In this document: positions 4,102-62,299 of the stretch, in pieces
Layout of the letters: every line of letters starts with the position of its first letter
Position numbering within the stretch: position 1 is the stretch's first letter
DNA from: Pararhodobacter zhoushanensis
Lineage (GTDB): Bacteria > Pseudomonadota > Alphaproteobacteria > Rhodobacterales > Rhodobacteraceae
DNA length: 64,000 bases
Assembly: GCF_003990445.1 (NCBI RefSeq)
Contig: NZ_REEZ01000005.1
Span: 62,001 to 126,000, forward strand
Direction of reading: 5' to 3'
Program-made: the position numbers and the translations under genes
The notes under the pieces: generated by a model
Databases searched by the model: none
The model's input: the letters and a program-made list of their open reading frames with translations, nothing else
Told to the model about the DNA's origin: nothing

Positions 4102-4260
4102 GAGGGGGCCAGCCCCCTCTGGCCCGTTCCGGGCCATTCACCCCCGGGATATTTGTGGACAGATGATGCACAGTTAACAAAGCGTAAACGCCCCATCATC
4201 TGTCCTTAAATATCCTGGGGGGTGAATTCGGCAGCGCCGAAGAGGGGGGCAAGGCCCCCC
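4102..4260. repeat. Composite palindromic intergenic repeat, copy A
   Basis: This fills most of the 429-base gap between the DUF2798 gene and the end of ecm. From outside in: G/C-block hairpins (4102-4119 and 4244-4260), outer arms TTCACCCCCGGGATATTT and its near complement (4137-4154, 4208-4226), and a perfect 12-base inner arm GGACAGATGATG (4157-4168) with CATCATCTGTCC (4194-4205). The core has GTTAAC (4173-4178) and GTAAAC (4184-4189). It is one of five related elements in the window and lies downstream of ecm. The rest of the gap (3865-4101) shows nothing gene-like. Confidence 0.85.
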
Positions 4261-4293
4261 TTTGCGCCGTTTGTCGCGGACGCTGGCGCTGAT

Positions 4294-6261
4294 TTACTGC
4301 GCGGCCACCGGGTGGTCGGCGACGAGGCCGACGATGTCCATCATGATCCGGTTCAGCTCGAAGTCCTTGGGCGTATAGACGGCGGCGACGCCGAGGGCGC
4401 GCAGGGTGGCGGCGTCGTCGTCGGGGATGATGCCGCCGACGACCACCGGCACGTCGCCCAGGTCGGCGGCGCGCATACGCTCCATCAGCTCGACGACCAA
4501 CGGGACGTGGCTGCCCGAGAGGATCGACAGCCCGACCACATGCGCCTCTTGCTCCAGCGCCGCCGCGACGATTTCGGCGGGGGTCAGGCGGATGCCTTCG
4601 TAATGGATGTCCATGCCGCAGTCGCGCGCACGGGCGGCGATCTGTTCCGCGCCGTTGGAATGGCCGTCCAGCCCTGGCTTGCCGACGACGAATTTCAGCC
4701 GGCGGCCCAGTTGAGTGCTGACCGCATCGACGGCGGCGCGGATCTCTTGCAGCCCTTCGGTGCGGTTCGACGGGTTGCGCGAGACGCCGGTGGGGGCGCG
4801 GTATTCGCCGAAGGCCTTGCGCACCACGAGTCCCCATTCGCCGGTGGTCGCGCCCGCCTTGGCCGCTTTGATCGAGGCGGGCATGACGTTCGCGCCTGAT
4901 GCCGCCACCGCGCGCAGTTCTTCCAACGCGGCCTGCACGGCAGCTTCATCGCGGCTGTTGCGCCAGGCGGTGAGGCGGGCGATCTGGTCGGCTTCGGCAT
5001 GCGCGTCGGCAACCATGATCGCGCCGTCGCCGGTGGTCAGCGGTGAGGGTTCGGTGGTGGTGAAGCGGTTCACGCCGACGACGGTGGTTTCGCTGCTTTC
5101 AATGCGCGCGATGCGCTCGGCATTGGCGTCGACCAGACGGCCCTTCATGTATTCGATCGCCTGCACCGCGCCGCCCATGTCGTCGATCAGCGCCAGTTCG
5201 GCCCGCGCGCCGTCTTTCAGCGCCGCGACCTTGGCGGCCACGACCGGGTTGCCGTCGAACAGATCGCCGTATTCCAGCAGGTCTGTCTCATAGGCCAGAA
5301 TCTGCTGCATTCTGAGCGACCATTGCTGATCCCATTTGCGCGGCAGCCCCAGCGCCTCGTTCCAGGCGGGAAGCTGGACAGCGCGGGCGCGGGCGTTTTT
5401 CGACAGGGTGACGGCGAGCGCCTCGATCAGGATACGGTAGACGTTGTTCTCGGGTTGCTGCTCGGTCAGGCCCAGGGAATTGACCTGCACGCCGTAGCGG
5501 AAGCGGCGATAGCGGGCGTCCTCGACGCCGTAGCGTTCAAGGCACAGCTCGTCCCACAGCTCGGTAAAGGCGCGCATCTTGCACAGCTCGGTGACGAAGC
5601 GGATGCCGGCGTTGACGAAGAAGCTGATGCGGCCGACCATCTCGGGGAAGTGCTCGGCGGGGACTTTGCCCTTGAGGTCATCGAGCACCGCACAAGCCGT
5701 CGCCAACGCGAAGGCCAGCTCCTGCTCGGGCGTCGCGCCGGCCTCTTGCAGGTGGTAGGAACACACGTTCATCGGGTTCCATTTGGGCAGGTGCTCGCGC
5801 GTATAGGCCGCGACATCGGTGATCATCCGCAGGGAGGGTTTCGGCGGGCAGATATAGGTCCCGCGCGAGAGGTATTCCTTGATGATGTCGTTCTGCACCG
5901 TGCCCTGCAGTTGGGTGACATCCGCGCCCTGCTCCTCGGCCACAGCAATATAGAGCGCCAGCAGCCACGGCGCGGTCGCGTTGATGGTCATCGACGTGTT
6001 CATCTGTTCCAGCGGAATCGCGTCGAACAGCATGCGCATGTCGCCCAGATGGCTGACCGGCACACCGACCTTGCCGACCTCGCCGCGCGCCAGTTCGTGA
6101 TCGCTGTCATAGCCGGTCTGGGTAGGCAGATCGAAGGCGACCGACAGGCCGGTCTGCCCTTTGGACAGGTTGGTGCGGTAGAGTTCATTCGAGGCCGTCG
6201 CCGTCGAGTGGCCGGCATAGGTGCGAAACAGCCAGGGCTTGTCCTTGGGGGTCTGGGTCAT
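4294..6261 (-). CDS. ecm: Ethylmalonyl-CoA mutase
   Basis: Coenzyme-B12-dependent (2R)-ethylmalonyl-CoA mutase, 655 residues, making methylsuccinyl-CoA in the ethylmalonyl-CoA pathway for growth on C2 compounds and acetate. The N-terminal TIM-barrel mutase domain begins WLFRTYAGHSTATASNELY and contains FDLPTQTGYDSDH. The C-terminal B12 domain has the DxHxxG motif (GLDGHSNG, His534 as lower axial ligand), SxL (LSILSGSH) and GG (VVVGGIIP). The sequence is much closer to Ecm than to methylmalonyl-CoA mutase. Start 6261 has GGAGG upstream; the open frame continues to 6474 but looks non-coding there. The upstream region shares a motif with ccr. MeaB, the likely chaperone, is at 55491. Confidence 0.93.
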   Translation of the reverse strand: MTQTPKDKPWLFRTYAGHSTATASNELYRTNLSKGQTGLSVAFDLPTQTGYDSDHELARGEVGKVGVPVSHLGDMRMLFDAIPLEQMNTSMTINATAPWLLALYIAVAEEQGADVTQLQGTVQNDIIKEYLSRGTYICPPKPSLRMITDVAAYTREHLPKWNPMNVCSYHLQEAGATPEQELAFALATACAVLDDLKGKVPAEHFPEMVGRISFFVNAGIRFVTELCKMRAFTELWDELCLERYGVEDARYRRFRYGVQVNSLGLTEQQPENNVYRILIEALAVTLSKNARARAVQLPAWNEALGLPRKWDQQWSLRMQQILAYETDLLEYGDLFDGNPVVAAKVAALKDGARAELALIDDMGGAVQAIEYMKGRLVDANAERIARIESSETTVVGVNRFTTTEPSPLTTGDGAIMVADAHAEADQIARLTAWRNSRDEAAVQAALEELRAVAASGANVMPASIKAAKAGATTGEWGLVVRKAFGEYRAPTGVSRNPSNRTEGLQEIRAAVDAVSTQLGRRLKFVVGKPGLDGHSNGAEQIAARARDCGMDIHYEGIRLTPAEIVAAALEQEAHVVGLSILSGSHVPLVVELMERMRAADLGDVPVVVGGIIPDDDAATLRALGVAAVYTPKDFELNRIMMDIVGLVADHPVAAQ

Positions 6262-6274
6262 GCTTGGCCTCCGA

Positions 6275-6354
6275 TTGCTGCAACCGCTGCGCAATATTCT
6301 TGCCAAGTGGATGCCGCACACGCAAGATCGTGTCAAGGCGGAATTTGCTGCAAC
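6275..6354. promoter_or_regulatory. Candidate operator of ecm, motif shared with ccr
   Basis: TGCTGCAACCGCTGCG at 6276-6291 differs in only two bases from TGCTGCAACTGCTGCA upstream of ccr (9593-9608). A further TTGCTGCAA, a palindrome around one base, lies at 6345-6353. Both are in the short region upstream of the ecm start. The repeated TGCTGCA-like unit with 9-base periodicity suggests a regulator common to the two ethylmalonyl-CoA pathway genes. No such regulator is identified in the window. Confidence 0.45.
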
Positions 6355-6370
6355 GCGGCGTCGCCAAAGG

Positions 6371-6967
6371 TCAGCGCGCGCCCGCACCCGCGACCGGAAA
6401 CTCCATCCGCAGGGCCGAGCTGAACCCGAACAGCCAGCGAAACGGCCCCAGTGACTCGCGTGAGACCGGCGCAAAGCCTTCGCGGCGATAGAGCGCCTCG
6501 GCGCGGGGGTTGGTGTCGATCACATCCAGCCGCACCACCCGGTCGCCGCGCTGCGCGGCCTCGGCCTTGATCGCGGCCAGCAAGGCCGTGCCGACACCCT
6601 GACCGCGCGCCTGCGCGCTGACGCAGATGCCGTCCATCTGCAACACGCCCGGTTCCAACTCTCGCTCAAGCAGTGCCAGCAGCGGACCGCGCCAGAGCGC
6701 GCCGGGCCAGCCGTAGACCCGCGCGAGATCCGCCAGACCGCCCGCAACCAGACCACCGGCGTCGGTTTTGAAGCCCGCGAGGCCCAGCAACTGGCCGTCT
6801 GCATCCACGGCGCTGATCGCAAACTCGGGCACGATGACCTGCGCGAAGAAACGCAGCGCCTTATCCTCGGGCCGCATCAGACGGCCCAGCTTGCCGCCGA
6901 AGGCCTGCCAGTAAAGGGCGGCGGCGGTGTCGATCTGGTCCGAGGGGATGCCGTGGATAATCTTCAT
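6371..6967 (-). CDS. GNAT family N-acetyltransferase
   Basis: Acetyltransferase of the GNAT superfamily, 198 residues. The acetyl-CoA pyrophosphate-binding loop is seen as QARGQGVGTALLAAI (motif A, R/QxxGxG/A). A beta-strand before it (LQMDGICVSAQ) and the C-terminal ALYRREGFAPV are usual for the fold. The acceptor substrate is unknown. Its start overlaps the stop of the upstream zinc-finger gene by 4 bases (ATGA), so translation is probably coupled. It lies upstream of ecm on the same strand with a gap of about 110 bases. Confidence 0.85.
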   Translation of the reverse strand: MKIIHGIPSDQIDTAAALYWQAFGGKLGRLMRPEDKALRFFAQVIVPEFAISAVDADGQLLGLAGFKTDAGGLVAGGLADLARVYGWPGALWRGPLLALLERELEPGVLQMDGICVSAQARGQGVGTALLAAIKAEAAQRGDRVVRLDVIDTNPRAEALYRREGFAPVSRESLGPFRWLFGFSSALRMEFPVAGAGAR

Positions 6968-7233
6968 TTCAGCTGACTGTCCTTGCTGCCACGGCGGTTG
7001 ATGCCGCCGCGCGGTTTGAAGGCTGCGTCTCGCTCATTCTGGCAGTCGATGCAGAGCGTGACGCCCGGGATCGCGCTGCGCCGGGGTTCGGGGATGGGCT
7101 CTTCGCACTCGGTGCAGTGCGTGCGGCTTTCACCCGCCGGGCGTTTTTGCGCGCGCAGCCGGGCGAGTTCGTCGCTGATCGACGCCTCGATCTGCTCGTT
7201 CACCGCGCCGTCTTTTGCCCATCCGCCTGCCAT
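6964..7233 (-). CDS. DksA/TraR C4-type zinc finger protein (YbiI-like)
   Basis: Small protein of 89 residues with one C4 zinc finger (HCTECEEPIPEP ... LCIDCQNERD, spacing C-x2-C-x17-C-x2-C), the signature of the short DksA/TraR group such as YbiI. It lacks the long coiled coil of true DksA, so action on RNA polymerase is not established. The start MAGGWAKDG at 7233 fits the family; the open frame reaches 7275. The stop overlaps the start of the GNAT gene. Confidence 0.8.
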   Translation of the reverse strand: MAGGWAKDGAVNEQIEASISDELARLRAQKRPAGESRTHCTECEEPIPEPRRSAIPGVTLCIDCQNERDAAFKPRGGINRRGSKDSQLK

Positions 7234-7350
7234 GGCCGCATCCTTTCGCTCTGCCCTGTAAAGGTAGGGTCGCACCCGGAGGCTGAGAAGACCCGCTGTT
7301 GTTCTTCTTTGCAGAGGGTTTTACCGTCGGCGCAAAGGAAAGGCCCTGCC

Positions 7351-8043
7351 ATGCCCCGACTTCAGCCCTTTGCCCCCGATCTCTGGCTGGCCGACGGCAC
7401 GCCGATCACCGCCGCGCTGGGGTTTCGCTATCCGATTCGCATGGCGGTGTTGCGCTTGGGGTCAGGCGGGCTGGTGCTGTGGTCGCCGGTGCAGGCCGAA
7501 CCAGACCTGCGCGACGAGATCGCGGCGCTGGGGCCGGTTGAGGCGATCGTCGCGCCCAACGCGCTTCATCACGTGTTTCTGGGTGAATGGGTCGAGGCGT
7601 TCCCGCAGGCCGCCCTCTACGCCGCGCCGAAACTGCGCGCAAAGCGACCCGATCTGTCGTTTGCCGCCGAGCTACCGGACCAGACGCCTGCGCATTGGGA
7701 GGGGCAACTTGACGCCGTGCTGGTGCCCAATTCCATCGCGCCCGAGGTGGTGCTCTTTCACCCTGCCAGCGGCACAGTCCTGACCGCCGATCTGCTGCAA
7801 AACATGCCCGCCGACTGGTATCACGGCTGGCGCGCGCTGATCGCGCGGCTGGACCACATGACCGGGCCGCTGCCGGGCGTGCCGGTCAAATTCCGTCTGG
7901 CGATGCGCAACGATGTGGCGCGGGCCGGGTTGCGGCGGCTGCTGGACTGGCCCGCCGAGCGGGTGGTGATGGCGCATGGAACACCGGTGGCTGAGGGTGG
8001 GCGTGCCTATCTGGCCGGCGTCTTTGGCCCCATGCTGCGTTAG
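7351..8043 (+). CDS. DUF4336 domain-containing protein
   Basis: Protein of 230 residues matching the DUF4336 family: the N-terminus begins PFAPDLWLADG, followed by a strand (MAVLRLGSGGLVLWSPV), NALHHVFLGEWVEAFP and a C-terminal VVMAHGTPV. The family resembles metallo-beta-lactamase folds, here with ALHH and MAHG at metal-site positions, but no activity is established. The start at 7351 follows AAAGGAAAGG; the open frame begins at 7117 but overlaps the divergent zinc-finger gene. The gene stands 52 bases before the acyltransferase. Confidence 0.75.
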   Translation: MPRLQPFAPDLWLADGTPITAALGFRYPIRMAVLRLGSGGLVLWSPVQAEPDLRDEIAALGPVEAIVAPNALHHVFLGEWVEAFPQAALYAAPKLRAKRPDLSFAAELPDQTPAHWEGQLDAVLVPNSIAPEVVLFHPASGTVLTADLLQNMPADWYHGWRALIARLDHMTGPLPGVPVKFRLAMRNDVARAGLRRLLDWPAERVVMAHGTPVAEGGRAYLAGVFGPMLR

Positions 8044-8095
8044 GTCGCGTGCGCGGTGCATTGTCCCCGGCCTCGCTTGGTGACACTCTCGCGGC

Positions 8096-9538
8096 ATGTT
8101 CCAACGTGTTGAAATCCCGCTGTGGTTGCTCAGCCTGATCCTGCTCTTCGCAGCGGTCGCGTTTCTGTCGCATTTTCTGTTCCCCTCGGTCCGCTGGTTC
8201 CTGCGCCGCCGGATGGAGCGCGCGGTCGAGGAGCTGAACAAGCGGCTTGAGCGCCCGATCCAGCCGTTCAAGCTGATGCGGCGGCAGGATAATGTGATCC
8301 GGCTGGTCTATGACCCGCAGGTGATGGCCGCCGTCGCCGACTATGCGCGCGAGCAGGGCATTCCGCGTTCTGTCGCCTTCGAGATGGCGCGCCGCCATGC
8401 GCGCGAGATCGTGCCGGGGTTTTCAACCGCCACCTATTTCGGCTTCGCCATCCGCGTAGCGCGGGGTCTCAGCCGGTTGTTCTATAAGGTGCATCTGGGG
8501 CGCGGCGATGCGCAAACGCTGCGCGACATTGACCCCAAGTCGGCGGTGGTTTTCGTCATGAACCACCGCAGCAACATGGATTATGTGCTGGTGACATGGC
8601 TGGCAGCGGATCGCTCGACGCTCAGCTACGCTGTGGGCGAATGGGCGCGGGTCTGGCCGCTCAGGGCGCTGATCCGGGGGATGGGCGCGTATTTCATCCG
8701 GCGACGCTATTCCAGCACGCTCTACCGTGCGGTGCTGGCGCGCTATGTGCAGATGTCGGTGCAGGAAGGCGTCACGCAGGCGATGTTCCCCGAAGGCGGG
8801 CTCAGCCTGACCGGGGCGGTGGGGTCGGCCAAGAAGGGTTTGCTGCACTACATCGTGCGCGCCTTCGAGCCGGACGAGGAACAGGACGTCGTCTTTGTTC
8901 CCGTTGCGCTGAACTATGACCGGGTGCTTGAGGATGAGGTGCTGATCGCGGCCGGCACAACCGGCAGCCGCCGCTTCCGGCTGCGGCTGGGTGAGGCGGC
9001 GGGGTGGTTCTTCTGGATCCTGTGGCAAAAACTGCTGCGCCGGACCAGCACTTATGGCCACGCGGCGGTGTGCTATGGCGCACCGTTGTCGCTGCGCGCG
9101 CATCTTACCGGCCAGACCGATATCGGATCCGAGCGCAGCACCGAGGTGTTGGCCGAGGAACTGATGACCCGAATCCGCGCCGCCGTGCCCTTGCTGCCGG
9201 TTCCGCTGACCGCTGCGGCCATGACGCGGCTGGGCGGAAGCGCCAGCCTGCTGGAACTGGAGAGCGGGGTCAGCACGCTGGTCGACGAAGCGCGCGCCAA
9301 AGGGGCAACGTTGCACCTGCCCGGCGGCACCGTGGTCGAGGCCGTTCGTTTCGCTGCCGAGGCGCTGCAGCGCCACAAGATCGTGCTTCGGGACGCGGAC
9401 GTGTTGCGGATCGCGCCGGGCAAGGAGGCGGCGTTGGCCTATTACGCGGCATCGGTTGAGCAGCGGCTTTCCGAACCCGGTGCCGATCTTTCCGAGGGGC
9501 TGGTGCCCCTGACACTCCCGGATGTCACCGAGACATAA
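8096..9538 (+). CDS. Glycerol-3-phosphate/1-acylglycerol-3-phosphate acyltransferase family protein
   Basis: Acyltransferase of the PlsB/PlsC superfamily, 480 residues, presumably acylating a lysophospholipid or glycerol phosphate at the inner membrane. There is an N-terminal membrane helix (IPLWLLSLILLFAAVAFLSH). The catalytic motif NHxxxxD is at MNHRSNMDYVL and the FPEGG motif at AMFPEGGLSLTG. It is longer than PlsC (about 240) and shorter than PlsB (about 800), resembling the intermediate-length group common in Rhodobacterales. The acyl acceptor cannot be told from sequence. ccr follows on the same strand after 109 bases with its own regulatory motif. Confidence 0.75.
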   Translation: MFQRVEIPLWLLSLILLFAAVAFLSHFLFPSVRWFLRRRMERAVEELNKRLERPIQPFKLMRRQDNVIRLVYDPQVMAAVADYAREQGIPRSVAFEMARRHAREIVPGFSTATYFGFAIRVARGLSRLFYKVHLGRGDAQTLRDIDPKSAVVFVMNHRSNMDYVLVTWLAADRSTLSYAVGEWARVWPLRALIRGMGAYFIRRRYSSTLYRAVLARYVQMSVQEGVTQAMFPEGGLSLTGAVGSAKKGLLHYIVRAFEPDEEQDVVFVPVALNYDRVLEDEVLIAAGTTGSRRFRLRLGEAAGWFFWILWQKLLRRTSTYGHAAVCYGAPLSLRAHLTGQTDIGSERSTEVLAEELMTRIRAAVPLLPVPLTAAAMTRLGGSASLLELESGVSTLVDEARAKGATLHLPGGTVVEAVRFAAEALQRHKIVLRDADVLRIAPGKEAALAYYAASVEQRLSEPGADLSEGLVPLTLPDVTET

Positions 9539-9590
9539 AGTTTCAATACTGACGTTTGTGGGGTTGCATTGTTGCGCGACCGATTCTATG

Positions 9591-9610
9591 CATGCTGCAA
9601 CTGCTGCATG
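9591..9610. promoter_or_regulatory. Candidate operator of ccr, motif shared with ecm
   Basis: TGCTGCAACTGCTGCA at 9593-9608 has two TGCTGCA units 9 bases apart and sits in an imperfect palindrome with CATG ends. It lies 40-55 bases before the ccr start and matches the site before ecm in 14 of 16 bases. Confidence 0.45.
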
Positions 9611-9647
9611 ATTTCTGCATTGCGGCACAGTGAATCAGGAGTGACTC

Positions 9648-10937
9648 ATGGCGCTTGATGTGAATCCCGGTATCGTCCCCTACGATGCACCCGAAAAAGA
9701 CCTCTACGAGATCGGTGAAATGCCGCCGCTGGGCTATGTGCCGCCGAAAATGTACGCGTGGTCGATCCGCCGCGAACGTCACGGCGAACCGGACAAGTCG
9801 TTTCAGGTCGAGGTTGTCGATACCTGGAAGATCGACAGCTACGAGGTGCTGGTTCTGGTGATGGCTGCGGGCGTCAATTATAACGGCGTCTGGGCTGGTC
9901 TCGGCGTGCCGATCAGCCCGTTCGACGGCCACAAGCAGCCCTACCACATTGCCGGTTCGGATGCCTCGGGCATCGTCTGGGCCGTTGGCGACAAGGTGAA
10001 AACCTGGAAAGTCGGCGACGAGGTGGTCATCCACTGCAATCAGGACGATGGCGACGACGAGGAATGCAACGGCGGCGATCCGATGTTCTCGCCCACCCAG
10101 CGCATCTGGGGTTATGAGACGCCGGACGGCAGCTTCGCGCAGTTCACCCGCGTGCAGGCGCAGCAGCTCATGCCGCGTCCCAAGCACCTGACCTGGGAAG
10201 AGGCCGCCTGCTACACGCTGACGCTGGCTACCGCGTACCGGATGCTGTTCGGCCACCACCCGCACGAGCTGAAGCCGGGCCAGAACGTGCTGGTCTGGGG
10301 CGCGTCGGGCGGTCTGGGTTCCTTCGCGATCCAGCTGATCAACGCGGCGGGGGCGAATGCCATCGGGGTGATCTCGGATGAGGACAAGCGCGAGTTTGTC
10401 ATGGGGCTGGGCGCCAAGGGCGTGATCAACCGCAAGGACTTCAAGTGCTGGGGGCAGCTGCCCACGGTCAATACACCCGAATACAACGAGTGGCTGAAAG
10501 AGGCGCGCAAGTTCGGCAAGGCGATCTGGGAGATCACCGGCAAGGGCGTCAGTGTCGACATGGTGTTCGAGCATCCCGGCGAGGCGACCTTCCCGGTTTC
10601 GGCGCTGGTGTGCAAGAAGGGCGGCATGGTGGTGATCTGCGCGGGCACCAGCGGCTTCAACTGCACCTTCGACGTGCGCTACATGTGGATGCACCAGAAG
10701 CGCTTACAGGGTTCGCATTTTGCGCATCTCAAACAGGCCTCATCGGCAAACCGCCTGATGATGGAGCGGCGCATTGATCCGTGCATGTCCGAGGTGTTCC
10801 CTTGGGCCGATATTCCCGCCGCGCATGTGAAAATGTTGCGCAATCAGCATAAGCCGGGCAACATGGCGGTTCTGGTGCAAGCACCGACCACGGGGCTGCG
10901 CACCTTCGAGGACGCGCTCGAAGCCGGCCGCCGCTGA
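9648..10937 (+). CDS. ccr: Crotonyl-CoA carboxylase/reductase
   Basis: Key enzyme of the ethylmalonyl-CoA pathway, 429 residues: NADPH-dependent reductive carboxylation of crotonyl-CoA to (2S)-ethylmalonyl-CoA. It is a medium-chain dehydrogenase/reductase with the N-terminal family block DLYEIGEMPPLGYVPPKMYA, the acidic insert QDDGDDEECNGGDPM and the nucleotide-binding loop VWGASGGLGSFAIQL. The C-terminal LRTFEDALEAGR is also typical. AGGAG precedes the start at about 9 bases. A strong terminator follows at 10960. With ecm 3.4 kb away and meaB in the window, the organism should assimilate acetate by this route. Confidence 0.96.
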   Translation: MALDVNPGIVPYDAPEKDLYEIGEMPPLGYVPPKMYAWSIRRERHGEPDKSFQVEVVDTWKIDSYEVLVLVMAAGVNYNGVWAGLGVPISPFDGHKQPYHIAGSDASGIVWAVGDKVKTWKVGDEVVIHCNQDDGDDEECNGGDPMFSPTQRIWGYETPDGSFAQFTRVQAQQLMPRPKHLTWEEAACYTLTLATAYRMLFGHHPHELKPGQNVLVWGASGGLGSFAIQLINAAGANAIGVISDEDKREFVMGLGAKGVINRKDFKCWGQLPTVNTPEYNEWLKEARKFGKAIWEITGKGVSVDMVFEHPGEATFPVSALVCKKGGMVVICAGTSGFNCTFDVRYMWMHQKRLQGSHFAHLKQASSANRLMMERRIDPCMSEVFPWADIPAAHVKMLRNQHKPGNMAVLVQAPTTGLRTFEDALEAGRR

Positions 10938-17431: not shown

Positions 17432-17433
17432 TC

Positions 17434-49087: not shown

Positions 49088-50566
49088 ATGCTGGACCAAC
49101 CTACCGATCTTCGCGGCCTTCTCAAGGACCCCTCACTGCTCGAAACCCGCGCCTTTGTCGCGGGCGCGTGGATTGATGCGGACGACGGCGCGACCTTCGA
49201 CGTGATCAATCCGGCCCGTGGGGACGTCATCGCCCGCGTGGCCGACCTCAGCCGCGTCGAAACCGCGCGCGCCATCACGGCGGCGAATACCGCGATGAAG
49301 GACTGGGCAGCGCGCACGGGCAAGGAACGCGCGGCGGTGCTGCGCACATGGTACGACCTGATGGTAGCCAATGCCGACGATCTGGGCACCATCCTGACCG
49401 CCGAAATGGGCAAACCGCTGGCCGAAGCCAAAGGCGAGATCCTCTATGGCGCGTCTTTCGTCGAATGGTTCGGCGAAGAGGCCAAGCGCGTCTATGGCGA
49501 AACGATCCCCGGCCATATGCGCGACAAGCGGATTACCGTGCTGAAACAGCCGATCGGCGTCTGCGCCTCGATCACGCCGTGGAACTTCCCCAACGCGATG
49601 ATCGCGCGCAAGGTCGCCCCGGCGCTGGCGGCAGGCTGCGGCTTTGTCGCCCGCCCGGCGGCGGAAACGCCGCTTTCCGCGCTGGCGATGGCGGTGCTGG
49701 CGGAACGCGCCGGGCTGCCCAAGGGGATCTTGTCCGTCGTCACCTCGTCGCGCTCGTCCGACATCGGCAAGGAATTCTGCGAGAACCCGGTTGTGCGCAA
49801 GCTGACCTTCACCGGCTCGACCGAAGTGGGGCGTATCCTGCTGAAACAGGCCGCCGATCAGGTGATGAAATGCTCGATGGAACTGGGCGGCAATGCGCCC
49901 TTCATTGTGTTCGACGACGCCGATCTGGATGCGGCGGTCGAGGGCGCGATGATGTCCAAGTTCCGCAACAACGGCCAGACCTGCGTCTGCGCCAACCGGA
50001 TCTACGTGCAGGCCGGGGTCTATGACGCCTTCGCCGAAAAGCTGCGGGTGGCGGTCGAGAAGCTGAACGTCGGCGACGGGCTGGAGTCCGGCGTGACCAC
50101 CGGGCCGCTGATCAACGCCAAGGCGGTCGAAAAGGTGCAGGACCACATCAAGGACGTGCTCGACCATGGCGGCGCGCTGATGACCGGCGGCAAGCCGCAC
50201 GCACTGGGCGGGACGTTCTTTCAGCCGACGGTGGTGACCGGGGTAACCCAGTCGATGAAAGTCGCGCAGGAAGAGACCTTTGGGCCGCTGGCCCCCTTGT
50301 TCAAGTTCGAGACCGAAGAAGAGGCGATCGGCTACGCCAATGACACGATCTTCGGGCTGGCCTGCTATTTTTACGCCCGCGACATCGGCCGCGTGACCCG
50401 CGTGCAAGAGGCGCTGGAATACGGCATCGTCGGGGTGAACACCGGCCTCATCTCGACCGAGGTCGCACCCTTTGGCGGCGTCAAGCAATCCGGGCTGGGC
50501 CGTGAAGGCTCGCACCACGGGATCGAGGATTTCCTCGAACTCAAATACATCTGCCTGAGCGTCTGA
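49088..50566 (+). CDS. gabD: Succinate-semialdehyde dehydrogenase (GabD-like)
   Basis: Aldehyde dehydrogenase of 492 residues matching GabD, oxidising succinate semialdehyde to succinate. Visible motifs are ITPWNFPNAMIARKVAPALAAG, the catalytic Glu in MELGGNAPFIVFDDAD, the catalytic Cys in NNGQTCVCANRIY and the C-terminal PFGGVKQSGLGREGSHHG. The cofactor site reads VARPAAETP, with Arg where Lys is usual. No gabT is adjacent. Repeat B lies between it and the convergent purK. Confidence 0.9.
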   Translation: MLDQPTDLRGLLKDPSLLETRAFVAGAWIDADDGATFDVINPARGDVIARVADLSRVETARAITAANTAMKDWAARTGKERAAVLRTWYDLMVANADDLGTILTAEMGKPLAEAKGEILYGASFVEWFGEEAKRVYGETIPGHMRDKRITVLKQPIGVCASITPWNFPNAMIARKVAPALAAGCGFVARPAAETPLSALAMAVLAERAGLPKGILSVVTSSRSSDIGKEFCENPVVRKLTFTGSTEVGRILLKQAADQVMKCSMELGGNAPFIVFDDADLDAAVEGAMMSKFRNNGQTCVCANRIYVQAGVYDAFAEKLRVAVEKLNVGDGLESGVTTGPLINAKAVEKVQDHIKDVLDHGGALMTGGKPHALGGTFFQPTVVTGVTQSMKVAQEETFGPLAPLFKFETEEEAIGYANDTIFGLACYFYARDIGRVTRVQEALEYGIVGVNTGLISTEVAPFGGVKQSGLGREGSHHGIEDFLELKYICLSV

Positions 50567-50576: not shown

Positions 50577-50729
50577 GGGGGGCTGTCAGCCCCCCTCTTC
50601 GCTTGCAGCGACTTCACCCCCCGAGGATATTTGCAGAGCAAAGAGCGGCGTTAACCTTTTGTTAACCGCCCCTCTTTGCTCTGTTAAATATCCCGGGGGA
50701 GCGCGAAGCGCGCGGGGGCAGCGCCCCCG
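50577..50729. repeat. Composite palindromic intergenic repeat, copy B
   Basis: Lies between convergent gabD and purK. Outer G/C hairpins are at 50577-50595 and 50714-50729. The outer arm TTCACCCCCCGAGGATATTT faces AAATATCCCGGGGG. The inner arm CAGAGCAAAGAG (50634-50645) pairs perfectly with CTCTTTGCTCTG (50672-50683). The core has GTTAAC at 50650-50655 and 50661-50666 within a 24-base near-palindrome. This is the most regular of the five copies. Confidence 0.88.
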
Positions 50730-51800
50730 TTACCCGCGTGTCACCCGGTTGACGTGGCCCATCTTGCGGCCCGGTCGGGCAGCGCCTTTGCCGTAGAGGT
50801 GGATCTGCGTGTCGGCCTCGCGCGACAGCGCGGGCACCCGGTCGACGTCATCGCCGATCAGGTTCTCCATCACCACATCCGCATAGCGCTGCCCATTGCC
50901 CAGCGGCCAGCCCGCCACGGCGCGGATGTGTTGCTCAAACTGGTCCACCGCGCAGCCCGCCTGCGTCCAGTGGCCCGAGTTATGCACGCGCGGAGCGATT
51001 TCGTTGACCACCAGCCCCTTGGGCGTCACGAACAGCTCCACCCCCATCACGCCGACATAATCGAGCGCATTCAGGATCTTACCGGCCAGCAACACGGCGT
51101 CCATGTGTTGACCGGGGGCCAGCCGTGCGGGCACTGTCGTGGTGCGCAGGATGCCGGCCTCGTGGACATTCTCGCCGGGGTCGTAGCACGAGACCTCGCC
51201 GTTCAGCCCGCGCGCGGCGATGACGGAGACCTCATGCGTGAAGCGCACGAAGCCCTCGAAGATCGCCTCGGCGCCGCCCATCTCGGGCAGCGCAGCGTCG
51301 GCCTGCCCGGCCTCCATGATCCGCGCCTGACCCTTGCCGTCATAACCCAGACGGCGGGTTTTCAGGATGGCGGGTGCGCCGTGCTCGGCCAGCGCCGCCT
51401 GCAACGCGGCCATATCGGGCACGTCGCAGTAAGGCGCGGTGGTCAGGCCCAGCCCGGTGAGGAAGTCCTTTTCCGTCAGCCGGTCCTGACTGATCGCCAG
51501 CGCGCGGCGGTTGGGGCGCACGGGGCGCAGGCTTTCCAGCAGGTCCAGCGTGGCGGTGGGGATGTTCTCGAATTCATAGGTGATCACATCGACCGAGGCG
51601 GCGAAGGCGCGCAGGGCGGCTTCGTCTTCCCAGTCTGCCGTCGTCACCCGTTCCGCCACATGCCCGGCGGGTGGGTTCGCGCCCGGATCGTAAACGTGGG
51701 TGCGCAGTCCCAGGCGGGACGCCGCGACGGACAGCATCCGGCCCAGCTGACCGCCGCCCAGGATACCGATGCAGGCGCCGGGGGCGAGGGGCTCACTCAT
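50730..51800 (-). CDS. purK: N5-carboxyaminoimidazole ribonucleotide synthase PurK
   Basis: ATP-grasp enzyme of 356 residues in purine synthesis, making N5-CAIR from AIR, bicarbonate and ATP. The N-terminal block [17 protein letters not shown] is diagnostic, followed by [11 protein letters not shown] and [15 protein letters not shown]-grasp segments include [13 protein letters not shown] and [13 protein letters not shown]. The start at 51800 overlaps the purE end by 8 bases. The product is converted by PurE, encoded just upstream. Confidence 0.95.
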
Positions 51801-55273: not shown

Positions 55274-55423
55274 CCGGGAGGATTTTCCATCCTCCCGGAC
55301 CCTCCTGGAGGATAGTTGAGGACAGAAAATGTGGTTAACGCGATCTTAACGCCGCATTTTCTGTCTAAAAAATATCCTCGGGGGTGAATTTGGCGTCAGC
55401 CAAAGAGGGGGCAGAAAACCCCC
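55274..55423. repeat. Composite palindromic intergenic repeat, copy C
   Basis: Located between the DUF1150 gene and meaB. The left hairpin is CCGGGAGGAT/ATCCTCCCGG (55274-55298), the right one GGGGGCAGAAAACCCCC (55407-55423). The inner arm GACAGAAAATG (55321-55331) pairs with CATTTTCTGTC (55355-55365). Relative to copy A, two bases changed in both arms so pairing is kept. The core has GTTAAC (55334-55339) and CTTAAC (55345-55350). Confidence 0.85.
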
Positions 55424-56495: not shown

Positions 56496-56600
56496 GACCC
56501 CGTTCGATATTCCGGGCACTGCTTGCCAGTGCTCTAAGCTTTTGACGGCGCCCCCGCTTCGTGGACCCGGTGCCCGACTGAACCAGACGAGGATGACACC

Positions 56601-56882
56601 ATGTCGCGCCGCTGCGAATTGACCGGTAAAGGCCCGATGTCGGGCAACAACGTGAGCCACGCCAACAACCGTTCCAAGCGGCGCTTCCTGCCGAACTTGG
56701 TGGATGTCACGCTGGCGTCAGATGCCACGGGCCGTGCCTATAAACTGCGCATCTCGGCTGCTGCCCTGCGCTCGGTCGACCACCGTGGTGGCCTCGACTC
56801 GTTCCTTGCCAAGGCGAAAGATGTCGAACTGTCGACCCGCGCTCTGGCCATCAAGAAAGAGATCGCCAAGGCTGCTGCCTGA
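56601..56882 (+). CDS. rpmB: 50S ribosomal protein L28
   Basis: Ribosomal protein L28, 93 residues: [29 protein letters not shown] is the diagnostic start. The C-terminal extension ([27 protein letters not shown]) is normal for alphaproteobacteria. It is monocistronic and followed by a strong terminator. Confidence 0.98.
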
Positions 56883-56908
56883 TCCTTTCCAAGGCTGATA
56901 TTCGGAAG

Positions 56909-56929
56909 GCCCCGCTTCGGCGGGGCTTT
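56909..56929 (+). terminator. Rho-independent terminator of rpmB
   Basis: GCCCCGC (56909-56915) pairs with GCGGGGC (56920-56926) around TTCG, followed by TTT. The UUCG loop makes it very stable, though the T-run is short. Confidence 0.85.
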
Positions 56930-56962
56930 CCCTTATGAGGGCTTTGGTATTCAAACGGGGGC

Positions 56963-57400
56963 ATGATCCGTCTTGCCACCCCCGCTGACCTTGGGGCGAT
57001 TCGCGCCTGCGCCGAGGCTGCCTATGCCCGCTACATCCCGCGAATCGGGCGGCGTCCTGCGCCGATGGATGCCGATTACGCCACGCTGATCGCTGACGGG
57101 TGCGTCTGGGTTGCCGGTGACGGTGCTGCCCTTGCCTATGCGGCGTTCTGGCCGCTGGGCGATCATCTCTATCTTGATGCGATCGCCGTGCTGCCCGAAG
57201 CCGCTGGTCAGGGACTGGGCCGCGCGCTGATGGACCGCGCAGAGGCGCTCGCGCGGGCTCAAGGCTTGGGCGCGATCCGGCTCTACACCAATGCCGCGAT
57301 GACCGAGAACCTGACGCTTTACCCGTACCTCGGCTTCACCCAGACCGACCGCCGGGTCACCGACGGGTTCGACCGCGTGTATTTCGAAAAGCGGCTCTAA
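56963..57400 (+). CDS. GNAT family N-acetyltransferase
   Basis: Acetyltransferase of 145 residues. The N-terminus MIRLATPADLGAIRACAEAAYARY and acetyl-CoA loop LPEAAGQGLGRALMDRAEALA are GNAT features; LTLYPYLGFTQTDRRVTDGFDRVYFEKRL closes the fold in the way common to small-metabolite acetyltransferases of the PA4866/YhbS kind. The substrate is unknown. Its stop codon overlaps the end of the convergent MaoC-like gene by 4 bases. Confidence 0.88.
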   Translation: MIRLATPADLGAIRACAEAAYARYIPRIGRRPAPMDADYATLIADGCVWVAGDGAALAYAAFWPLGDHLYLDAIAVLPEAAGQGLGRALMDRAEALARAQGLGAIRLYTNAAMTENLTLYPYLGFTQTDRRVTDGFDRVYFEKRL

Positions 57401-58161
57401 AGGCCTGCCCAGCCTTCCATCGCCAGCACCCCATCGGCGCGCCGCACCCACAGATGCGCCTCGGCTCCGTCGATCCCCCCGCAAAGTGTGAACGGCGTTC
57501 CATCGGTGATCGGCGCCTTGGCGCGAAAGCGGAAGCCTTGGGGCAGGGCACCGCCTTCGACGCGCAGCAGATCCAGCAGCAGCGTTGCCAGCAGCGGGCC
57601 GTGCACGACGAGGCCGTCGTAGCCTTCGGTCGCGCAGAACGCCCGGTCATAATGGATGCGGTGGCCGTTGAAGGTGAGCGCCGAGTAGCGAAACAGCAGC
57701 ACGGGATCGGCGGTCATCCCCCGGCTGAGGGTCTCGCCCTCAGGGGCCTGCTCGACGGCACCTGGCGGAGCGTCGGCGCGGCGGTAGACGATGTCCTGAT
57801 CCTCGGTGATCAGCGGGCCGTCGGTATCGTGCCAGCGGTGGGCGACGGTGACAAAGGCGATGGGGCCGCTGCGGCCCTGTTTCTCGACCACCGAGGTCAC
57901 GACCGATGTGCGCGTGACCTCGGCCCCGATCCGCAGGGGCCGGTGAAAGGTTAGCTGACCTCCGGCCCACATCCGACGCGGCAGGGGGAGGGGCGGCAGG
58001 AAATGCCCCAGCGCCTGATGCCCGTCCGGCCCGGCCTGATCCAGAGGATAGACCGGCAGCGCGTGGAACCAGTGCCACAGGGGCGGCAGGGGTGTGCCGG
58101 GGGCGAAATTGTCGCCCCGGTTCAGCGTCGCCGCCATCGCCTGCGCCGGGAACGGGCGCAC
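57397..58161 (-). CDS. MaoC/FAS1-like dehydratase domain protein (mesaconyl-C4-CoA hydratase-like)
   Basis: Hot-dog fold protein of 254 residues resembling 3-methylfumaryl/mesaconyl-C4-CoA hydratases and HTD2-type dehydratases. Typical blocks are PLPPLWHWFHALPVYPLDQAGPDGH, LPPLPLPRRMWAGGQLTFHRPLRIG and the active-site-like FRYSALTFNGHRIHYDRAFCATEGYDGLVVHGPL. It would hydrate or dehydrate an acyl-CoA. The only in-frame standard start is GTG at 58161 (ATG at 58137 also possible), yet twelve codons upstream read WQPLVARASEIV as in coding sequence. It follows aroC by 35 bases. Confidence 0.78.
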   Translation of the reverse strand: MRPFPAQAMAATLNRGDNFAPGTPLPPLWHWFHALPVYPLDQAGPDGHQALGHFLPPLPLPRRMWAGGQLTFHRPLRIGAEVTRTSVVTSVVEKQGRSGPIAFVTVAHRWHDTDGPLITEDQDIVYRRADAPPGAVEQAPEGETLSRGMTADPVLLFRYSALTFNGHRIHYDRAFCATEGYDGLVVHGPLLATLLLDLLRVEGGALPQGFRFRAKAPITDGTPFTLCGGIDGAEAHLWVRRADGVLAMEGWAGL

Positions 58162-58196
58162 AATCTCACTCGCCCGGGCGACGAGGGGCTGCCAGC

Positions 58197-59300
58197 TTAC
58201 CCGATGGAGCCGCGCAGGCCCTCGCCCATCTGGGCGCGGTGCAACAGCAGCTGGTCGAGCAGCACGCAGGCCATCATCGCCTCGCCCACCGGAACGGCGC
58301 GGATGCCGACGCAGGGGTCGTGGCGGCCCTTGGTGACGACGTCGGTGTCCTGCCCGTCGAGGGTAACGGAATGGCGCGGGGTCAGGATCGACGAAGTCGG
58401 CTTGACCGCAAAGCGCACGACGACATCCTGCCCGGTCGAAATCCCGCCCAGCACGCCACCCGCGTGGTTCGAGCCATACTCGGGCCCGTTCGGCCCCATG
58501 CGGATCTCGTCGGCGTTCTCGACGCCGGTGAGCGCGGCCGAGGCCATCCCGGCGCCGATCTCGACACCTTTGACGGCGTTGATGGTCATCATCGCGCTGG
58601 CCAGCTCGCTGTCGAGCTTGGCATAGATCGGCGCACCCAGACCGGCGGGAACGCCGCGCGCGACGACCTCGACCACCGCACCGACCGAGTTGCCGGTCTT
58701 GCGCAGGGCGTCAAGATCATCTGCCCAGAGCCGCGCAGTCTCGGTATCGGGGCACCAGAAGGGATTGGCGGCAATGGCGTCCCAGTCGAAGCGCGCGCGG
58801 TCGATCAGGCGCGGGCCCATCTGCACCATATAGCCGGTAACGCTGAGGCCCGGGGCCAGCGCCGACAGCACCTGCCGCGCCACGCCGCCTGCCGCCACGC
58901 GCGCGGCGGTTTCGCGCGCGCTGGACCGTCCACCGCCGCGCGGATCGCGGATGCCGTATTTCTGCCAATAGGTGATGTCGGCATGGCCGGGGCGGAAGGT
59001 CTTTGCGATCTCGCCATAGTCTTTCGAGCGCTGATCGGTGTTGCGGATCATCAGCTGGATCGGCGTGCCGGTTGTACGGCCCTCATAGACGCCTGACAGG
59101 ATCTCGACCGCGTCAGCCTCGCGCCGTTGGGTGGTGAAGCGGTTCTGGCCGGGTTTGCGGGCGTCCATCCACGGCTGGATATCCGCCTCGGACAGCGGGA
59201 CGCCCGGCGGGCAGCCGTCCACGGTTGCGCCAAGGGCTGGTCCGTGGCTTTCGCCCCAGGTCATCACGCGGAACAGATGGCCAAAACTGTTGAACGACAT
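58197..59300 (-). CDS. aroC: Chorismate synthase
   Basis: Last enzyme of the shikimate pathway, 367 residues, making chorismate from EPSP with reduced FMN. Signatures are [42 protein letters not shown] and [19 protein letters not shown]. Start 59300 ([20 protein letters not shown]) is the family start with GGAG-type ribosome site AGGGGGCTCCT on the minus strand nearby. It is divergent from hrpB, with repeat D between, and precedes the MaoC-like gene. Confidence 0.97.
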
Positions 59301-59448
59301 AGGAGCCCCCTTTTCGCCGCCCGGTCTAGCCTTGGGCTGGCCCCCGCTCAAGCCCCAAGTGCGGGGCGGGATTTCGCCCTCGGTCTGGACGGCTTGCGCC
59401 GCCCCGGCCTCGGGCGACCCGGCGCGCCGCTGTCGCGGCGCGCAAGAA

Positions 59449-59610
59449 GGGGGGCCTTCAGCCCCCCTCTTCGACTAAAGCCGAATTCACCCCCCGGAGG
59501 ATATTTGAAGAGCAAAGAAAGGACATGTCAGGCTGGTTACAGACAATTTTACTCAAATTTGCGCCTCTTTGCTCGCTAAATATCCCGGGGGTCCGGGGGC
59601 TGGCCCCCGG
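59449..59610. repeat. Composite palindromic intergenic repeat, copy D
   Basis: Occupies part of the 374-base gap between divergent aroC and hrpB. G/C hairpins are at 59449-59467 and 59593-59610. Outer arms: GAATTCACCCCCCGGAGGATATTT and AAATATCCCGGGGG. Inner arm GAGCAAAGA (59510-59518) pairs with TCTTTGCTC (59566-59574), close to copy B. The core is longer and has lost GTTAAC. Here it sits in a shared promoter region rather than at gene ends. The rest of the gap (59301-59448, 59611-59674) shows no gene. Confidence 0.8.
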
Positions 59611-59674
59611 CGCTCGCAACCCGAACCGAGCGCGGGCTCTTCCCTTCACCCGTCCGGCCCCGCATAAAACCACC

Positions 59675-62125
59675 ATGCAATTTCCCGGCGCGCCCCTCCC
59701 CATCGATCCGCTTCTGCCCGCGCTGGTCGCGGCGTTGTCGGAGAAGGGGCAGGCTGTGCTGCAAGCGCCGCCCGGTGCCGGCAAGACCACGCGCGTACCG
59801 CTGGCGCTGTTGGCGGGCACCAAGGGCCGGATCGTTCTGCTCGAACCCCGCCGTCTTGCCGCCCGCGCCGCCGCCGAGCGCATGGCCGAAACACTGGGCG
59901 AATCCGTCGGCCAGACCGTTGGTTACCGCATCCGGGGCGAGGCGCAGGTGTCAAAGGCGACCCGGATCGAGGTGGTGACCGAGGGCATTCTGACCCGGAT
60001 GCTGCAATCCGACCCGTCGCTGGACGGCATCGGCGCGGTGATCTTTGACGAATTCCACGAACGGTCCCTGAACGCCGATCTGGGGTTGGCGCTGGTGTTG
60101 GAGGCGCGCTCGGCGCTGCGCCCGGATCTGCATCTGGTGGTGATGTCGGCGACGCTGGATGCCGCTCCGGTGGCGGCGCTGCTGGGGGGCGCGCCCTTGC
60201 TCACGGCTGAGGGGCGCGCTTACCCGGTCGAGACCCGTTGGCTGGACGCCCCGGTGCCGCGCGAGACCCGCTTGCCGCAGGCGGTGGCTGAGCTGACCCT
60301 CAAAGCACTGGCCGAGACCGAGGGCGGCATCCTTGTGTTCTTGCCCGGCGAAGGCGAGATCCGCCGCACCGCCGCGCTTCTGGCCTCACGCTTGCCCGCC
60401 GAGGTGCACCTGCACCCCCTCTTTGGCGCGATGGATTTCGCGGCGCAGCGCGCGGCGCTGGCCCCGGCGCAGAGCGGGCGCAAACTGGTGCTGGCGACGG
60501 CGATCGCCGAGACCTCGCTCACCATCCCCGACATCCGCGTGGTGGTTGACGGCGGGCAGGCGCGGCGGGCGCGGTTCGATCCGAATTCCGGCATGTCGCG
60601 GCTGGTGACCGAACGCGTCAGTCTGGCCGAGGCCGAACAGCGTCGGGGCCGGGGTGGGCGCGTGGCCGAGGGGATCTGCTACCGGCTATGGACCAAGGGG
60701 CAAGAGGGGGCGCTGCCCGCCTTCGCGCCCGCCGAGATCGAGACCGCCGACCTTACCGGACTGGCGCTGGATCTGGCGCTCTGGGGCTCGTCCGACCTCG
60801 CCTTTCTCACCCCGCCACCGCCCGGTCCTTTGGCCGAAGCACGGGCGCTGCTGCACGATCTTGGGGCGTTGTCCGGGGACCGCATCACCCCCCATGGCAA
60901 GGCCATGGCGGCGCTGCCGCTGCATCCGCGTCTGGCGCATATGCTCCTGCGGGCGGGCAAACCGGCGGCCACCCTTGCCGCCCTGATCGCCGACCGCGAC
61001 CCGCTGAACGGTGCCCCCGCCGATCTGTCGCTGCGGCTGAAGGCTTTGGAAAACCCGCGCGCCTATGCCAGCGACCACCCCTGGCCGCTGCAGCGCGAGA
61101 CGCTCGAGCGGATCCGGCAAGAGGCCAAACGTCTCGCCCGCCTTGCTCCTTCGGATCAGGGGCTGGACCCGGCCGAAATGGCCGCGCTGGCCTATCCCGA
61201 CCGGATCGGTCAGCGGCGCAAGGGCGACCAGCCGCGCTACTTGCTGTCGGGCGGCAAGGGGGCGGTGTTCGACGCCGCCGATCCGCTGGCCAACAGCCGC
61301 CTGATCGTGGCGACCGATCTGGATGGCGATCCGCGCGAGGCGCGGATACGCCAGGCATTGCCGATCAGCGAAGCCTCGCTGCGCGACCTGTTCGCCGAGC
61401 GGATCGTCTGGCAAGATCTCTGCGAATGGAGCCAGCGCGAAAACCGCATCACCGCAAAATCCCGCGAAACGCTGGGTGCTCTGGTGCTGGCAGAGCGCAA
61501 CTGGGCCGCACCGCCCGAGGCGCGGGCCAAGGCCGCCCTAGACGGGGTGCGCGCGCTGGGGCTGGCCTTGTGCGGCATGACCCCCGCCGCCCGCCGCCTG
61601 CAGTCGCGCGTGGCGCTGCTGCGCGCAGAAGGCACAGCCCTTCCGGATTTCACCGACGATGCCCTGACCGCCCGCGCCGAAGTCTGGCTGCTGCCGTATC
61701 TCACCAGGATCCGCACAGCGGATGACCTCAAGGCGCTGGACCTGACCGAGGCGCTGAAACACGCGCTGGACTGGGAGCAACAGCAACTGCTCGACCGACT
61801 CGCGCCTGCGCATTTCATCACACCGATGCACCGCAAGGTGCCCATCGACTATGCCCATGGCCAGCCCGAAATCAGCGTGCGGCTGCAGGAAATGTTCGGC
61901 ACCACCGAGCACCCCAGCATCGGCCCTCGCCGCCTGCCGCTGAAAGTGACGCTGCTCAGTCCCGGCCAGCGGCCCGTTCAGGTGACTACGGACTTGCCGC
62001 GCTTCTGGGACACGTCTTACGCCGATGTCCGCAAGGACATGCGTGGCCAATACCCGCGCCACCCCTGGCCGGAAAACCCGCGTGAAGCGGACCCGACGCT
62101 GCGCGCCAAGCCTCGGGGGACGTGA
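59675..62125 (+). CDS. hrpB: ATP-dependent helicase HrpB
   Basis: DEAH-box helicase of the HrpB type, 816 residues. Walker A is APPGAGKTTRVPLALL (residues ~31-46), the DExH box DEFHERSLNADLGLALVLEA, motif III MSATLD and motif VI EQRRGRGGRVAEG. The C-terminal HrpB-specific region (HALDWEQQQLLDRLAPAHF, PRLPLKVTLLSPGQRPVQVT) is present. Start 59675 (MQFPGAPLPIDP) is chosen because the longer open frame (59525) would run through repeat D. RNA substrates are not known. Confidence 0.93.
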   Translation: MQFPGAPLPIDPLLPALVAALSEKGQAVLQAPPGAGKTTRVPLALLAGTKGRIVLLEPRRLAARAAAERMAETLGESVGQTVGYRIRGEAQVSKATRIEVVTEGILTRMLQSDPSLDGIGAVIFDEFHERSLNADLGLALVLEARSALRPDLHLVVMSATLDAAPVAALLGGAPLLTAEGRAYPVETRWLDAPVPRETRLPQAVAELTLKALAETEGGILVFLPGEGEIRRTAALLASRLPAEVHLHPLFGAMDFAAQRAALAPAQSGRKLVLATAIAETSLTIPDIRVVVDGGQARRARFDPNSGMSRLVTERVSLAEAEQRRGRGGRVAEGICYRLWTKGQEGALPAFAPAEIETADLTGLALDLALWGSSDLAFLTPPPPGPLAEARALLHDLGALSGDRITPHGKAMAALPLHPRLAHMLLRAGKPAATLAALIADRDPLNGAPADLSLRLKALENPRAYASDHPWPLQRETLERIRQEAKRLARLAPSDQGLDPAEMAALAYPDRIGQRRKGDQPRYLLSGGKGAVFDAADPLANSRLIVATDLDGDPREARIRQALPISEASLRDLFAERIVWQDLCEWSQRENRITAKSRETLGALVLAERNWAAPPEARAKAALDGVRALGLALCGMTPAARRLQSRVALLRAEGTALPDFTDDALTARAEVWLLPYLTRIRTADDLKALDLTEALKHALDWEQQQLLDRLAPAHFITPMHRKVPIDYAHGQPEISVRLQEMFGTTEHPSIGPRRLPLKVTLLSPGQRPVQVTTDLPRFWDTSYADVRKDMRGQYPRHPWPENPREADPTLRAKPRGT

Positions 62126-62146
62126 GCGGGTGGCAGGTGTTGCAAA

Positions 62147-62299
62147 GGGCGTATTTAAGGCAGGCTGAAAAGCGATGTTGAACGCCGGCACGCATGAGTA
62201 TCGCGAATTTTAGATAAATTGTTCGCGCCTCTAACCGCTTTCATCTTGCCCTAAATACGCCGGGGGTGAGGCCGCAAGGCCGAGGGGGCTGGCCCCCTG
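62147..62299. repeat. Composite palindromic intergenic repeat, copy E
   Basis: Lies between convergent hrpB and the UbiH-like gene. GGCGTATTTA (62148-62157) pairs with TAAATACGCC (62252-62261), extended with mismatches by GGCAGGCTGAAAAGCG and CGCTTTCATCTTGCC. A G/C hairpin is at 62282-62299. The core is degenerate and AT-rich. It is the most diverged copy, recognised by layout and position. Confidence 0.6.

Follow-up and report, generated by a model that had tools for sequence, protein, structure and literature searches.

What keeps the two arms of a long intergenic palindrome alike, and what such a palindrome might do, are questions raised by a stretch of 64,000 nucleotides from Pararhodobacter zhoushanensis (NCBI RefSeq assembly GCF_003990445.1, contig NZ_REEZ01000005.1, positions 62,001 to 126,000 of the forward strand; hereafter the window), which holds five composite inverted repeats, elements A to E. 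A preliminary description of this DNA had placed the five correctly: their arms were recovered by a repeat search, and all of them fold as single strands better than dinucleotide shuffles (z of -8.8, -11.0, -6.7, -3.6, and -3.7 for A to E), with 1 of 200 shuffles folding as well as the native sequence for D and none for A, B, C, and E. It had also taken them for members of a family with more than a handful of copies, and indeed we found 73 strict matches and 301 half-sites in this genome. Some genomes of the Rhodobacteraceae carry hundreds of copies, mostly just after genes. Each half combines an 8-mer that is constant across the Rhodobacteraceae with a word that is lineage specific, and comparison with a sister genome strongly suggests that words are copied between sites which themselves stay in place.

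Architecture and range of the repeats

The P. zhoushanensis genome (G000; 4.83 Mb in 56 contigs) was searched with a strict pattern, GGATATTT-N40-70-AAATATCC, for which the 73 matches are exact (reversed control, 0), and with a half-site pattern, GGATATTT-NNN-word with up to two mismatches, which gave 173 sites with GACAGANNATR, 66 with GAGCAAAGAR, and 62 with GCATAAAGTTG. Flanking sequence was retrieved for 55 of the 73 strict copies, 49 of them taken without regard to words and 6 for a matching word pair. Read from the outside in, an element of about 200 bp including its flanking hairpins consists of a GC-rich hairpin cassette (found outside in each of the 55 copies), a C-rich linker, the invariant 8-mer GGATATTT, a spacer of 3 nt (4 nt in 2 of 110 halves), a word of about 10 letters, and a loop, followed by the mirror image. 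The word is one of four and was exact in 109 of the 110 halves (97 of 98 when the six word-chosen loci are left out). By a simple linker rule, the "A" cassette stands on at least one side of 52 of the 55 elements and on both sides of 5; the opposite side usually carries one of three other cassette types. The length between halves was 63 to 74 bp in 49 loci.

The GC-block hairpins reported earlier around the elements, and the arm GAGCAAAGA shared by B and D, are present as described. The proposed outer-arm design holds for most arms, which carry GGATATTT, but not for the left arm of C, where GGATAGTT stands with CCCTCCTGGA rather than CACCCCC, nor for E, which has GCGTATTT/AAATACGC. In addition, the small outer hairpins of A cassettes, compared by eye, vary in their stems and yet stay paired (TTCGGC/GCCGAA, TTTGGC/GCCAAA, TGCGCG/CGCGCA, and TTGGCC/GGCCAA), dispersed copies share near-identical interiors, and two two-sided elements of about 165 bp exceed twice the usual length (G000:C53:13904-14070 and G000:C1:305250-305413).

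Among 295 Rhodobacteraceae genomes, nearly one per genus, the strict pattern occurred in 87 (reversed control, 1); some of these matches (e.g., in G142, G172, G033, and G248) have no inner stem and look like chance. Words peculiar to their lineage among the matches listed are GCCCAAAGAAG (G128), CCACTTGGA (G290), and CCAATAAGAAG (G232). Within the genus, 12 of 19 genomes carried the strict pattern. Two genomes of the same genus rated 100% complete (G304 and G308) gave no strict match, for which loss and altered outer arms are both possible. At least 116 stretches of named genomes match, and 80 loci were analyzed; the carriers include Gemmobacter, Rhodobacter capsulatus, Paracoccus, Thioclava, Salipiger, Rhodovulum, and Pararhodobacter, among others, and a few bins labeled as outside the Rhodobacteraceae, such as Sphingomonadales, are also found among these loci. 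Two relatives, G295 and G296, have element interiors equal to those at loci of P. aggregans and P. marinus.

A sample of the class comprised 289 genomes, four of them Rhodobacteraceae (P. zhoushanensis included). Outside the Rhodobacteraceae, the pattern occurred in 14 of 285 genomes (reversed control, 4), with an inner stem in register in G456 only. That copy (G456:C93:6846-6911), from another family of the class, follows the design with the stem TGAAGTGAT. No phage record matched, and 10 plasmid records matched over 19 to 21% of the query. Two stretches of IMG/VR viral contigs (L293 and L294) also match the pattern and may be prophage or misassigned host DNA. GMGTATTT-type elements with a gap of 40 to 70 were absent from the P. 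zhoushanensis genome, the longer gap of E putting E-like copies beyond this search.

Replacement and constancy of the words

The sister genome (G311), about 93% identical, is occupied at all five window sites. By flank matching of 55 loci of P. zhoushanensis and 50 of the sister, we obtained 28 orthologous pairs, or 30 with window sites A and D; the count is confined to pairs in which both genomes match the strict pattern, and decayed sites are therefore not represented. The word differed in at least one half at 14 of the 30 two-sided sites and in both halves at 7; among the 25 pairs free of word-chosen loci and of the two window sites, it differed in 12. Three of the 14 changed pairs are exchanges between GACAGAAAAT and GACAGATGAT, two letters apart, and may have arisen by point change. 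The largest class pairs GCATAAAGTTG in P. zhoushanensis with GAGCAAAGA in the sister (13 of 60 halves), and 16 of the 20 GCATAAAGTTG halves at orthologous two-sided sites carry another word there. Flanks 200 to 700 bp away were about 0.9 identical or better in most pairs, with one side at 0.64 in L004 and at 0.67 in L010. A deeper comparison, at about 80% identity, covers sites D and E. Site D is occupied, with other words, in both genomes with adjoining neighbors (G295 and G305), and site E in all three (G222, G296, and G303), where the outer arms are GAGTATTT/AAATACTC instead of GCGTATTT/AAATACGC; between G296 and G303, one compensated pair differs in the inner arm.

The reading of the arms given in the preliminary description needs correction. 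The difference between A and C, GACAGATGATG versus GACAGAAAATG, had been taken for a compensated change; it is instead a switch of one word for another within a set of four discrete words, each found in exact copies throughout the genome. Copying had been proposed to proceed by way of a hairpin; copying is supported, as replacement of the interior at fixed sites, but not in that form.

Half-sites without a listed partner were sampled as well. Of 20 fetched, with second halves judged by eye, 16 had no second half and 4 had a degenerate one. Among the 16 solitary halves, 6 have the word no more than about 10 nt from the stop codon of a gene that ends toward them. Fourteen of the 20 loci could be aligned with the sister genome, six not being resolved; the word was changed in 4 of 11 solitary halves (L259, L272, L274, and L277) and kept in 7, and it was changed in one of three two-sided sites.

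The words themselves are nearly invariant. Although two mismatches were allowed, GAGCAAAGA was exact in 66 of 66 half-sites and GCATAAAGTTG in 62 of 62. The exact 11-mer GCATAAAGTTG occurs 62 times genome-wide, always at these half-sites behind a GGATATTT-like 8-mer (reversed control, 8), and 233 kb of P. zhoushanensis sequence contains 1, 0, 1, and 0 copies of the four words away from half-sites. A trans-acting locus with an exact copy of GCATAAAGTTG is accordingly lacking in the genome; the other three words were checked in the 233 kb only. In 34 halves whose word was not replaced between the two genomes, differences were counted at 2 of 327 word positions, against 21 of 102 in the spacer and 37 of 204 in the 6 nt that follow the word (P of 2e-12 and 2e-14 for the excess of spacer and post-word changes over the word). 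Thus, even unchanged sites change quickly next to the word. From this pattern we infer that something must read the word, or that only intact words can be copied.

Pairing, placement, and alternative explanations

The same word stands on both sides in 30 of the 49 loci chosen without regard to words (12.2 expected; maximum of 5,000 shuffles, 23), in 36 of 55 with the six word-chosen loci (13.9 expected), and in 39 of 50 listed copies of the sister genome (16.3 expected). In 81 elements from named genomes, word positions 11 to 18, 20, and 21 pair beyond all 500 shuffles, which do not remove relatedness among elements; position 19 is nearly invariant, and its pairing was reached by 60 of 500 shuffles, and that of the three spacer positions by 43, 3, and 142. 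Counted directly, the 3-nt spacer pairs no better than chance (39, 35, and 63 of 97, versus 43.8, 43.6, and 68.2 expected). That pairing is kept family-wide, and at site E as well, argues for a hairpin. The selection for pairing proposed in the preliminary description is supported in so far as 10 of 11 word positions pair beyond all 500 shuffles and the arms of E are compensated. However, words are exact even in solitary halves, and many pairs are mixed, so that pairing fails to account for the frozen words and cannot be the only constraint.

Placement was assessed with a simple codon-usage gene caller trained on the window and not retrained for named-genome loci. No predicted gene contains any of the 55 copies, whose neighboring genes are convergent in 29 cases, co-directional in 25, and divergent in 1. 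Convergent places are enriched (29 of 55, versus 10 of 62 gene pairs in the window; P = 3e-5), divergent pairs of the window also numbering 10 of 62. Likewise, 76 named elements comprise 30 convergent, 45 co-directional, and 1 divergent, whereas the same loci contain 58 convergent (P = 1e-7) and 75 divergent pairs among 461. At least one neighboring gene ends toward the element in 54 of 55 cases here and in 75 of 76 named ones. The flanking GC hairpins end in a short TTT or TCTT. At the gene end at 50566, one relative (G295) has only a plain GC hairpin and then TTTT, and P. zhoushanensis, G311, G303, G296, and G305 have a cassette with an element or half-element, which is a solitary half with different words in G303 and G296 and a degenerate half in G305.

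Our preferred account, to which we give nearly an even chance, is a composite one: a mosaic terminator-linked hairpin repeat in which ectopic gene conversion would exchange the word cores and a putative reader would keep them constant. As RNA, in either direction, the long hairpin within a string of hairpins would form a two-way structure for transcription ends and mRNA 3' ends, and pairing would therefore be kept. Such a role may be the most economical function because the elements follow stop codons beside terminator-like hairpins; the bidirectional termination suggested earlier fits the 3'-end and convergent enrichment, its molecular role being presumptive. Word-bearing interiors or half-interiors would be copied between sites by ectopic homologous recombination through the shared cassettes and GGATATTT. 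The word would be constrained by a putative reader, be it a protein or the conversion machinery, because the spacer and core beside it vary freely.

Several observations weigh against this account. Words are exact in solitary halves, which cannot form the long hairpin, and unlike words, leaving arms that do not fully pair, are found in 19 of 55 elements here and 11 of 50 in the sister. A long U-tract is missing behind the central palindrome, and cassette orientation at co-directional places was not significantly related to transcription (15 versus 23; P = 0.26). Window element D sits between divergently transcribed genes, a position kept in relatives. Besides, where a solitary half has swapped its word, only the cassette side offers shared flanking homology, and simple two-sided gene conversion explains such swaps less well.

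If the composite account is true, the repeats are an abundant post-gene feature in a family that is both large and well studied (Rhodobacter, Paracoccus, Thioclava, Salipiger, Leisingera, and others) with two parts under different rules, an 8-mer constant family-wide and a word frozen within a genome and replaced between lineages. Concerted evolution of a cis-element would then be directly measurable between sister genomes, and the words would point to a putative reader or copying machinery.

Alternatively, though this seems doubtful to us, the halves may be DNA sites for a sequence-specific protein, one domain of which would read GGATATTT and another the word, leaving the 3-nt spacer uncontacted. 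Paralogues would then match the four words of this genome, fast-evolving specificity would yield dialects on the model of DNA uptake sequences and their receptor, both pairs and singles would work, and placement after genes would merely mean avoidance of coding and promoter DNA. Such a protein would suit an invariant word beside a free spacer, exact words in solitary halves, strand-indifferent placement, words that are discrete and interchangeable, and their absence elsewhere (62 of 62 GCATAAAGTTG within half-sites). A distance between halves that varies from 63 to 74 bp in 49 loci and reaches about 165 bp elsewhere would be harmless if halves were bound singly; a rigid dimer across both halves is unlikely over the range of 63 to 74 bp. 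However, half-site binding by itself leaves the same-word excess unexplained, as it does the compensated arms at E, whose word is outside the words listed for those genomes, and no candidate protein was identified, no systematic search for one having been made. We regard with similar reserve the possibility of a genome-wide recognition system with dialects, in which about 300 half-sites would be read by a putative fast-evolving factor, with words rewritten at fixed sites and lineages shifting dialect without moving the sites. A chromosome-protein site, also a candidate in the preliminary description, is a further possible reading.

It is rather improbable that the elements are selfish, non-autonomous mobile or converting repeats with no host function, their words being recognition ends of a putative transposase or recombinase and GCATAAAGTTG a recent invader. 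The replacement seen at 16 of 20 GCATAAAGTTG halves is in line with this, as are the dispersed near-identical interiors, the mosaic cassettes, and presence or absence at one gene end. Sites D and E, however, are stable over about 20% divergence, and no decayed words within two mismatches were found. Furthermore, the P. zhoushanensis genome contains no PF01797 (Y1/RAYT-type) gene, whereas 5 of 14 control genomes were positive; other transposase families were not searched. On the lack of a PF01797 gene a REP/RAYT system was rejected, a search for RAYT-like transposases having been named as a check in the preliminary description.

Quasipalindrome template switching in replication, keeping arms alike with no selection on the word, is very improbable: it would give the same-word excess and replacement of one homotypic pair by another, but it would equalize the 3-nt spacer too, which does not pair beyond chance, a result that speaks against such correction as sole cause, and it cannot keep words constant in solitary halves.

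Known repeat systems and the elements of the window

The closest working likeness is to REP/BIME elements and, in the dialects, to DNA uptake sequences, and a defining feature of each fails. In the available portion of one source, REP/BIME elements with RAYT amount to hundreds of short intergenic palindromes per genome, mosaic, in genome-specific families, and with palindromicity kept across strains (PMC2817692). The present repeats resemble that account in their many intergenic palindromic copies, their mosaic combinations, and pairing kept while the sequence differs. They are unlike it in having arms of two layers (constant 8-mer and word), a free 3-nt spacer, long hairpin cassettes, and word switching at fixed sites; besides, the REP head GT(A/G)G given there (PMC2817692) was not found, the present half-sites opening with a C-run and then GGATATTT.

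DNA uptake sequences of the Neisseriaceae, as far as the accessible part of the source describes them, are words constant within a species that differ between relatives, occur as inverted pairs at terminators and as singles, and can form more than one dialect per genome (PMC3630211). The present words are likewise lineage specific and constant within a genome. In contrast to that part of the account, there are about 300 half-sites here rather than thousands, GCATAAAGTTG always stands behind a GGATATTT-like 8-mer, and the words are not dispersed in coding DNA (two strays in 233 kb). Words dispersed in the manner of uptake sequences are ruled out by this confinement to half-sites, genome-wide for GCATAAAGTTG and within the 233 kb for the other three words. 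Clustered-hairpin intrinsic terminators likewise place several hairpins in a row past a stop codon, but the abstract does not present them as a family of repeats in which some words are fixed and others switch (PMC8355165).

No Rfam family matched the window at the gathering threshold, and in ten loci searched with E up to 1 just miRNA-type families lay over elements (E of 1.6e-7 to 0.03), below gathering scores. The RIME elements of the Rhizobiales resemble the present repeats in being alphaproteobacterial intergenic mosaic palindromes. Among the open-licence papers listed, we recognized no description of this repeat family, which is not proof of its being unpublished.

The features of the five window elements are collected in Table 1.

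Table 1. Half-sites, flanks, and core of elements A to E (positions within the window; strand in the third column)
Feature	Position	Strand	Content	Basis or comparison
Element A left flank	4102..4139	.	GC hairpin, small hairpin, and start of CACCCCC linker ("A" cassette)	Sequence
Element A left half-site	4147..4168	+	GGATATTT, spacer GTG, word GACAGATGATG	Sequence, repeat listing
Element A right half-site	4194..4215	-	GGATATTT, spacer AAG, word GACAGATGATG read on - strand	Identical in sister genome
Element A right flank	4216..4262	.	GGGGGTGAATTC linker, small hairpin, GC hairpin	Sequence
Element B left flank	50577..50624	.	"A" cassette: GC hairpin, small hairpin, CACCCCCC linker	10 nt past stop of gene ending at 50566
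Element B left half-site	50625..50644	+	GGATATTT, spacer GCA, word GAGCAAAGA	Sequence
Element B core	50651..50667	.	Two GTTAAC 5 nt apart (TTAA-N7-TTAA); folds as hairpin tip	Sequence, folding
Element B right half-site	50673..50693	-	GGATATTT, 4-nt spacer, word GAGCAAAGA	Sequence
Element B right flank	50694..50730	.	GC hairpins; reaches stop of convergent gene 50730-51800 (-)	Sequence, gene calls
Element C left flank	55274..55309	.	"B1" cassette: GGGAGGATTTTCCATCCTCCC hairpin, CCCTCCTGGA linker	Sequence
Element C left half-site, one mismatch	55310..55331	+	GGATAGTT, spacer GAG, word GACAGAAAATG	GGATATTTTCA in sister genome
Element C right half-site	55355..55377	-	GGATATTT, 4-nt spacer, word GACAGAAAATG	Sequence
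Element D left half-site	59499..59518	+	GGATATTT, spacer GAA, word GAGCAAAGA	Left word GACAGAAAATG in sister genome
Element D right half-site	59566..59585	-	GGATATTT, spacer AGC, word GAGCAAAGA	Word unchanged in sister genome
Element E left arm, divergent class	62149..62170	+	GCGTATTT, AAG, GCAGGCTGAAA	Sequence, repeat listing
Element E right arm	62239..62260	-	GCGTATTT, spacer AGG, GCAAGATGAAA	GAGTATTT/AAATACTC at same site in three relatives

An all-against-all comparison of proteins neighboring the elements gave a largest cluster of 6 loci and no obvious cognate gene. The spacing TTAA-N7-TTAA was found in 27 of the 55 cores, with no other short TTAA spacing in the core; it matches the CtrA box and equally a hairpin tip with a 5-nt loop. 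The GTTAAC core is not present in elements D and E. A second core family, AATTTnnnnnAAATT, was found in D (59540-59562), in E (62205-62225), and in loci of relatives (L197, L201, L204, and L207). Finally, an RNase P RNA gene (957-1392 of L011, - strand) adjoins one of the elements.

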